A stretch of DNA of 64,000 bases from Fibrobacter sp. UWB10 (GTDB lineage: Bacteria; Fibrobacterota; Fibrobacteria; Fibrobacterales; Fibrobacteraceae), in NCBI RefSeq assembly GCF_900182935.1, contig NZ_FXUE01000003.1, positions 1-64,000 on the forward strand, written 5' to 3'. Below the pieces are notes generated by a model. That model was not told the DNA's origin, made no database searches, and saw only the letters and a program-made list of their open reading frames with translations. Shown here in pieces: positions 891-1,884 of the stretch; the stretch's first letter is position 1, and each line of letters opens with the position of its first letter. The translations under genes and the position numbers were made by a program.

Positions 891-1205
891 ATGCAAGTAG
901 AATTCGTCTGGGATGACAAGAAAAATACATCAAATCAAAAGAAACATGGTGTTTCGTTTGAGGAGGCTAAAACCTGTTTCGAAGATGACCATGCAAGAGT
1001 TTTCTTTGATGTTGAACATTCTGCGCAAGAAGACAGGTCAATTCTTATCGGATTGTCAAATCAATTGAGGACTTTGGTTGTTGTATTTACAGAACGAAGC
1101 GGGATTGTTTCCGAACAGTTGATAAATCGCATCATCAGTGCCCGAAAAGCGACAAGAAAGGAATTTCAATATTATTGGAACGCAAGAAAAGGAGATTGCT
1201 TATGA
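891..1205 (+). CDS. brnT: BrnT-family toxin (DUF497)
   Basis: The 104-residue product matches the BrnT fold throughout. It opens with FVWDDKKNTSNQKKHGVSFEEA, the family's W-D-x-x-K-x-x-x-N-x-x-KH-x-V-x-F-x-E-A block (central part), has a middle DRSILIGLS segment and ends with RIISARKATRKEFQYY, the R-I-I-S-A-R-x-A-x-x-x-E box. BrnT toxins are RelE-like ribonucleases that stop translation by cutting RNA; BrnA neutralises them by forming a complex. The gene is preceded by AGAGGA and overlaps the next gene by the ATGA motif (1202-1205), so the two are translationally coupled. Toxin first, antitoxin second is the usual brnTA order. The pair sits beside tRNA-Pro remnants, a common place for such modules. 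Confidence 0.93.
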   Translation: MQVEFVWDDKKNTSNQKKHGVSFEEAKTCFEDDHARVFFDVEHSAQEDRSILIGLSNQLRTLVVVFTERSGIVSEQLINRIISARKATRKEFQYYWNARKGDCL

Positions 1206-1417
1206 AGAAGGAATATGATTTCTCAAAAATGAAGGCCAAGAAGAATCCTTATGCAAAGCTTCTCAAGAAACAAATAACCATAAGATTGAATTCTGATACA
1301 ATCGATTATTTCAAAAATATGGCTGCGGAACTCGGTATTCCGTACCAGGTACTGATTGATTCGTATTTGACGGATTGTGCGAATACGAAACGCAAACTGA
1401 ACATGAGTTGGAAGTAG
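1202..1417 (+). CDS. brnA: BrnA-type antitoxin
   Basis: The product has 71 residues. I chose ATG 1202 because AAGGAGA lies just upstream and it overlaps the brnT stop; the ATG at 1175 would give an unlikely 9-residue extension inside brnT. The N-terminus is basic (MKKEYDFSKMKAKKNPYAK), followed by KKQITIRLNSDTIDYFKNMA and an amphipathic helix ending around LIDSYLTDC. This is the ribbon-helix-helix pattern of BrnA/CopG antitoxins, where the QITIRL strand inserts into the DNA major groove. It should both neutralise BrnT and repress the operon through the 857-875 palindrome. Confidence 0.88.
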   Translation: MKKEYDFSKMKAKKNPYAKLLKKQITIRLNSDTIDYFKNMAAELGIPYQVLIDSYLTDCANTKRKLNMSWK

Positions 1418-1584
1418 GGGGCGGAATAGCGAGATTGCCGAAACGGTCTTGTTATTCCCGTTTCGCCCTTCGGGCTTGCCTGCAACTTTGTTGCAGGTCA
1501 AGGCTTCCGCTCAGCGTTTCACTTCGTTCACTTAGAGCGTAATCGAACTCACTTCGTGAGTTCTTCATCTCGCTCTATTTGCAA

Positions 1585-1626
1585 TAAAAAACGAAAGGAC
1601 ACCCAAATGGTGTCCTTTTCGTTTTT
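1585..1626. terminator. Terminator-like hairpin between the two tRNA-Pro tail copies
   Basis: GGACACC (1597-1603) pairs with GGTGTCC (1609-1615) around a CAAAT loop. The stem extends into A-rich and T-rich flanks, so it could end transcripts in either direction. It resembles the 1772-1809 hairpin in position relative to a tRNA tail. Confidence 0.7.
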
Positions 1627-1771
1627 ATCGGAATAGCGAGATTGACGCCTTCGGCGTCCGCGGCATCGGCTCTGTCATGACAGCCCGCGAGCGGTCTGTC
1701 GCGACGCTCGCCTCGCACGCTTTCGAACTCACGACTTCGTCGTTCGTTCTCAATCCCTCCAAATCCATATA

Positions 1772-1809
1772 AGACAAAAAAGACACCCTAGAAGGTGTCT
1801 TTTTGTCTT
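1772..1809 (-). terminator. Terminator of tRNA-Pro(CGG)
   Basis: AGACACC (1781-1787) pairs with GGTGTCT (1794-1800) with A/T-rich flanks on both sides. Read on the minus strand it starts two bases after the tRNA 3' end and finishes in a T-rich run, fitting a factor-independent terminator. Confidence 0.75.
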
Positions 1810-1810
1810 A

Positions 1811-1884
1811 TCGGAATAGCGAGATTCGAACTCACGACCTCTTGCTCCCGAAGCAAGCGCTCTACCAGGCTGAGCTATATTCCG
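1811..1884 (-). tRNA. tRNA-Pro, anticodon CGG
   Basis: The minus strand folds as a complete cloverleaf of 74 nt. The acceptor arm CGGAATA/TATTCCG is fully paired with discriminator A at 1811, the D-arm contains AGCTCAGCCTGGTAGAGC, and the anticodon arm has CTTGC/GCAAG around loop TTCGGGA (anticodon CGG). The T-arm carries GTTCGAATC. The 3' CCA is not encoded and must be added after transcription. This is the intact source of the two damaged tail copies to its left. Confidence 0.93.

Follow-up and report, generated by a model that had tools for sequence, protein, structure and literature searches.

RtT-like tandem units carrying tRNA tails behind tRNA-Pro(CGG) and other tRNA genes of Fibrobacter

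The tRNA-Pro(CGG) locus and its two repeat units

The window, meaning the whole analysed stretch of 64,000 nt from contig NZ_FXUE01000003.1 of Fibrobacter sp. UWB10, carried an intact tRNA-Pro(CGG) gene at 1811–1884 on the minus strand, which was identified by ARAGORN and by Rfam RF00005 (68.2 bits). At the Rfam gathering threshold, tRNAs were the sole matches in the window. Exact sequence search placed the 15-nt tail of this gene (CGGAATAGCGAGATT) at three positions, 1422–1436, 1629–1643, and 1812–1826, as the preliminary description had stated. The original copy within the gene (1812–1826, minus strand; AATCTCGCTATTCCG) runs from the T-loop to the acceptor 3' strand, and the exact 15-mers at 1629–1643 and 1422–1436, both on the minus strand, are the tail copies of the units termed A and B, respectively. 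No further exact copy occurred in the 3.48 Mb genome, and all three lie at the tRNA-Pro(CGG) locus; the calculated chance expectation was approximately 0.007, and the reversed-pattern control gave zero matches.

The T-loop continuation of the copy at 1629 (TTCGAACTCACGACTTC) picked up again at 1722, and that of the copy at 1422 (TCGAACTCAC) at 1543. The hairpin inserts splitting the T-arm from the tail measured 79 nt in unit A and 106 nt in unit B, in agreement with the earlier estimates of about 80 and 107 nt, and the break point in both was after T-loop A58 (TTCGA^AATC). One terminator-like palindrome was located directly behind the tRNA (1769–1811, minus strand; inverted-repeat arms 1769–1780 and 1800–1811) and another behind unit A (about 1579–1633, minus strand; inverted repeat I1). 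The minus-strand order was tRNA, terminator, unit A, terminator, unit B, with tail-to-tail spacings of 183 and 207 nt. The tRNA origin of the tails, their T-loop break point, the separating hairpins, and the order of the parts had all been described correctly.

Read on the tRNA strand, the general unit consisted of a partial reverse-complement copy of the tail, a T-arm-copy hairpin (..GTTCGA), a hairpin core, which in most units includes CCCGAAGGGC, and the exact tail, often followed by a terminator; the 5' reverse-complement tail was degenerate in several genomes. In unit B, sequence and fold revealed the near reverse complement of the tail, AATAGAGCGAGAT (1567–1579, minus strand), as the 5' strand of the closing helix, followed by a perfect hairpin GAACTCACGAAGTGAGTTC plus GA (1543–1563, minus strand), whose 3' strand is the T-arm copy GTGAGTTCGA. 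Its core, termed M-B (1435–1542, minus strand), comprises three hairpins and CCCGAAGGGC and lies after T-loop A58; it was matched by covariance model R1 with 67.2 bits (E = 3.5e-14), unit B itself being in the training set of that model. Unit A shares this frame but contains another core, M-A, in place of CCCGAAGGGC. Its T-arm-mimic hairpin (1722–1750, minus strand; direct repeat D2, 17 nt, 94%, and fold) ends in the T-arm copy GTCGTGAGTTCGA, and its core (1642–1722, minus strand), a palindromic element in the T-loop, was recognised by covariance model R2 with 87.9 bits, a model built partly from this copy. Compared with shuffled sequences, the fold of unit B was pronounced (z = -6.8) and that of unit A moderate (z = -2.7). 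As RNA, a unit would form a minihelix that resembles the T-stem and some of the acceptor and in which about 100 nt of structured sequence take the place of the T-loop.

The core of unit A looks like a dispersed M-A repeat placed in the T-loop position. M-A is a palindromic element of 81 positions with a variable outer stem; 39 copies were present in the genome, including the one at window 1642–1722, and 9–110 copies per genome searched were dispersed through the genus. Several M-A copies stood directly behind a stop codon. Another hairpin-rich intergenic stretch was seen at 480–620 of the window, and similar sequence, reversed, lay behind a tRNA-Val(GAC) gene (L048).

Beyond the element, the convergent neighbours were a brnT toxin gene (891–1205, plus strand; PF04365, E = 2.3e-26) and a brnA antitoxin gene (1202–1417, plus strand; PF14384 and PF12441 above cut-off), which stops 5 nt short of the last tail. 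The brnTA module and truncated-looking surroundings had been taken as fitting an integration scar. However, both genes exceeded the Pfam cut-offs over most of each model and nothing looked truncated, the sole cut-off feature near brnTA being the start of the contig at window position 1. A Fib_succ_major-like fragment at 9–413 scored below the Pfam cut-off.

Distribution and inheritance of the units within the genus

The broken tails are units of a structured, tRNA-mimicking repeat family that occurs after the same five tRNA genes throughout the genus. Covariance model R1 of the core located units in the genus (Fibrobacter-like genomes) behind tRNA-Pro(CGG), Pro(UGG), Ser(CGA), Gly(GCC), and Gly(CCC), each unit bearing the T-arm and tail of its own tRNA. 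Across the whole UWB10 genome, R1 gave six matches, all behind tRNA genes. Since R1 was trained on 21 sequences, several from this genome, the informative part of that result is the absence of matches elsewhere in the genome. Frames with their own tail and T-arm were present in this genome at Pro(UGG), Ser(CGA), Gly(GCC) (twice), and Gly(CCC), and also at Arg(UCU), where the core was of the M-A type. As a separate observation, tRNA-Arg(ACG) at L075 (G000:C2 near 126135) was followed 174 nt on by an uninterrupted copy of T-arm and tail that lacked a core.

R1 matches were obtained in 35 of 37 genomes of the genus and in none of the 24 genomes of other Fibrobacterota. Likewise, no tail copies were found behind 33 tRNAs of two non-genus Fibrobacterota genomes. 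Among 60 regions fetched from relatives, which represent R1 matches away from tRNA-Pro(CGG), 58 contained Pro(UGG), Ser(CGA), Gly(GCC), or Gly(CCC), and the two exceptions have a contig cut close by. The first core began 71–90 nt behind the tRNA in 53 of the 79 tabulated R1 matches; the remainder were mostly second or later units, or lay inside interrupted tRNA copies. The number of units per locus ranged from one to several.

At the Ser(CGA) and Pro(UGG) loci, the best tail copy resembled the local tRNA more than any other type in 34 of 37 cases. The same comparison gave 11 of 24 for the Gly tRNAs, a poor separation that reflects how much alike the two Gly tails are. Certain lineage-specific tRNA variants recurred within the unit, such as ACCCCTCTC and ATCCCTCACCCT at Ser(CGA) loci; others, such as those of Pro(UGG) in L127, L138, and L143, were absent from it. 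The nearest relative of a unit in another genome was at the same tRNA type for 116 of 118 units, with about 26 expected; the units are inherited by locus. Free mobility between tRNAs was ruled out by the same nearest-neighbour analysis.

Full-length tRNA-like genes with a core in the T-loop were also present in some relatives, upstream of the intact gene. They resembled tRNA-Pro(UGG) in L165 (two copies) and L128, and tRNA-Ser in L145, L141, and L150. As read by eye, two interrupted Pro copies had a second insert in the anticodon loop, and in the interrupted Ser copies the anticodon arm was altered and showed no obvious anticodon. The 5' part of one L165 copy was a weak tRNA match in Rfam, at 31.5 bits. 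A further module, CGTGAGCAA..hairpin..GGTTGCGAGAG.., was seen in the tRNA anticodon loops of L128 and L165, as well as behind tRNA-Cys in L084 and in L197, sometimes with other modules nested inside.

Comparison with RtT/RttR and other repeat classes

The units are very probably RtT-type tRNA-trailer elements. In the E. coli K-12 tyrT-tyrV region, six exact 19-nt tails were found, two of them within tRNA genes and the remaining ones at the ends of repeats, each of which reads GGGGAAGG(A/G)TGAGAA, T-arm-copy hairpin, hairpins, CCCGAAGGG, tail. RtT/RttR (RF00391, tyrT-tyrV-tpr) and the Fibrobacter units share this order of parts, namely the reverse-complement tail, the TGAGAA junction, the T-arm hairpin ..GGTTCGA, the hairpins, CCCGAAGGG, and the exact tail. 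In both, exact copies of the tRNA 3' end (15 nt, three times, at Pro(CGG); 19 nt in E. coli) form a tandem array of about 180 nt per repeat behind a tRNA, with a spacing of 178 in E. coli compared with 183–207 nt here. The closing helix formed with the reverse-complement tail, the T-arm-copy hairpin, and the CCCGAAGGG hairpin could be recognised in unit B and most relatives. In contrast to RtT, the Fibrobacter units occur at five other tRNAs (Pro, Ser, Gly), each with its own tail, have longer perfect hairpins in the core and a terminator-like palindrome before each unit, and in some relatives are accompanied by full-length tRNA genes whose T-loop is broken at the same position.

The Rfam RtT model, which is independent of these sequences, gave 11 weak matches in nine genomes of the genus, each at an R1 unit, and no match in 14 related genomes outside the genus. 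The gathering score of 45 bits was reached in 0 of 37 genomes; the best score was 33.0 bits in this genome, at the Ser(CGA) unit, and 37.6 bits in the genus. Conversely, R1 scored the E. coli repeats at a low 12.2 bits. Because each model is weak on the other's repeats, the relation to RtT rests on shared architecture and motifs, and this resemblance may reflect either homology or convergence.

A scan of 84,980 genomes with one degenerate pattern gave at least 120 stretches, with about 4 calculated by chance. Among the matches listed there were 80 loci, many of them enteric and not independent, and 64 of these had a same-strand tRNA within 1.2 kb upstream, distributed as 38 Tyr, 13 Ser(GGA), 9 Pro, and 4 other Ser. 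Among the same listed matches, the first unit lay 48–71 nt from the tRNA, and tails were identical at 12 of 12 positions in 47 of 56 evaluated. Part of this breadth already lies within the known RtT family, since three Ser(GGA) loci (L323, L335, and L337) and a Ser(GCT) locus (L277) have units that the Rfam RtT model recognises at gathering. Alignment of the units across phyla left their hairpins out of register. The matches at L267, L290, and L298 look like chance, and L314 (labelled Treponema) and L333 (Chryseobacterium), which carry Fibrobacter-like and enteric-like units, are probably mis-binned or contaminating contigs.

Other known systems share individual traits with the units. Like REP/BIME sequences, they are intergenic palindrome mosaics, and the M-A module is dispersed. 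Unlike REP/BIME, the M-B core in this genome is confined to tRNA genes, and a consistent Y1 transposase partner is lacking. The REP transposase (PF01797) was considered as a partner and rejected, its occurrence being patchy, with one copy in this genome and absence from most unit-bearing genomes of the genus. Intervening sequences of rRNA (IVS) are palindromes inserted into structural RNA genes at a loop. The units are likewise palindromic and loop-inserted, but differ in having an intact tRNA gene retained beside them and, usually, no tRNA 5' half of their own. Remnants of attR at tRNA genes have exact copies of the tRNA 3' end in common with the units, which are set apart by the structured T-loop insert, the T-arm copy, the lack of a nearby integrase, and their inheritance by locus.

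RtT, still little understood, is known mainly as a peculiarity of the tyrosine tRNA locus in E. coli. The openly accessible literature on rtT and on Fibrobacter non-coding RNA or palindromes yielded little. In the table of one biofilm screen, RttR is entered as without effect (PMC4606813). The recurrence of the RtT design in a different phylum, behind tRNAs for Pro, Ser, and Gly, turns RtT into a comparative problem, in which the kept features (T-arm copy, tail, CCCGAAGGG, and distance to the tRNA) can be told from the free one (core sequence), and it opens RtT-type function to tests in more than one organism. It also cautions that repeated tRNA tails need not be integration scars.

Covariation and competing explanations

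In our reading, the two broken tails of the tRNA-Pro(CGG) locus are two tandem RtT-type tRNA-trailer units that act as mimics of the tRNA 3' end, an explanation to which, taken whole, a probability of roughly 0.6 was given. Read-through transcription of the tRNA would yield the unit, on which proteins for tRNA 3' processing or RNA binding would act, by analogy with the RttR small RNA of E. coli, and the arrays would grow and shrink by tandem duplication. Read-through would be needed because a terminator-like palindrome separates the tRNA from the unit, and the strength of that palindrome counts against it. The part of this explanation in which the units act as RNA is put forward tentatively, at somewhat under even odds. 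Mimicry of the tRNA 3' end in RNA was judged the most likely function, with a DNA-level role as its main rival, given that RttR, the relative in E. coli, carries a small-RNA annotation and that the constant parts of the unit are the T-arm and the tail. A two-sided 3'-UTR role for all units was also considered; it fails for some loci since a crude ORF count gave co-directional downstream genes at 15 of 42 loci, the other 27 being convergent.

The base pairing of the core bears on the choice between RNA and DNA. In 90 distinct cores, 93.4% of cells were standard pairs, and 24 of the 26 core pairs showed compensatory double changes. Fitting the alignment to the model biases this result towards the structure, but pairing fell to 30–46% in a control with slid partners, which is a large difference. 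Core helix H2 contained 8 G-U and 6 A-C among 797 cells, compared with 61 G-U and 2 A-C among 732 cells at the acceptor and T-stem positions of the tRNAs in the fetched loci. This scarcity of G-U is odd for a purely RNA-level structure and suggests, without amounting to proof, upkeep at the DNA level or on both strands. The 25 distinct H2 stems from outside Fibrobacter gave 191 Watson-Crick, 0 G-U, and 2 A-C pairs, obtained with a stem finder biased against G-U. The M-A stems look more RNA-like, with 19 G-U and 3 A-C in 12 sequences. The same family could accordingly be viewed as hairpin-forming DNA, selfish or structural, with its tRNA tail copied from the local gene and its palindromes kept perfect by template switching or because they are recognised as single-stranded hairpins. 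In addition to the paucity of G-U, such a role would accommodate the terminator preceding the unit and the occurrence of M-A both dispersed and inside units, and C-GAA-G triloops are very stable in DNA. Against it stand the lack of spread between tRNA loci, the absence of Y1 transposases from most genomes of the genus with units and M-A copies, and the annotation of RttR as RNA, and we regard it as a serious though unlikely alternative.

Two further explanations fare worse than the mimicry of tRNA 3' ends. The units might be neutral: functionless tandem copies of the tRNA 3' end with its terminator, into which local palindromic repeats have settled. The variation in copy number from one to several would agree with this, as would the 175-bp rtT copy-number change that distinguishes two Salmonella Paratyphi A strains (PMC2658671). 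Yet structure and position of the units are kept genus-wide while core sequences have widely diverged, with pervasive compensatory change, and units of this design are found again in other phyla, which leaves neutrality quite improbable. The preliminary description had favoured scars of tyrosine-recombinase islands, in which the tRNA end is restored and old tails are left behind. This could not be sustained and is considered highly improbable, although tRNA 3' ends are classic integration sites and, at L295, where a tRNA 3' half adjoins a unit, the sequence upstream of that half reads like the start of an integrase. The units recur at the same five tRNAs, contain T-arm and reverse-complement copies and a conserved structured core in the T-loop that recombination would not be expected to produce, and are inherited by locus. 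Moreover, no integrase gene or island was present at the unit loci compared, our own contig ending 1.4 kb beyond the last tail. Matches to PF00589 were far from these loci: in this genome the nearest Phage_integrase gene was about 83 kb from any unit on the same contig, and in nine relatives the nearest integrase-unit pair, as judged by eye, was about 29 kb apart (G004 C1), followed by 56 and 79 kb, most integrases being on contigs other than those with units. The earlier alternative of a small palindromic element preferring this T-loop came closer; what it missed is that insert, T-arm, tail, and reverse-complement tail form one RtT-like unit. Islands may use such tRNAs too, and in L295 and L292 a unit is preceded by a tRNA 3' half for which no 5' half was detected, a possible island junction.

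A broader proposal is that all these elements belong to one widespread bacterial class, self-built from the 3' half of the tRNA they follow, with the copy kept matched and upheld as perfect DNA hairpins, the interrupted full-length tRNA genes representing its more complete form; in this full extent it is speculative and would more probably prove wrong. In the non-enteric units of L292, L295, L335, L273, and L277, hairpin loops with GGA (AGGA, CGGGA, CTGGA) were seen, which may recall CsrA-type binding loops.
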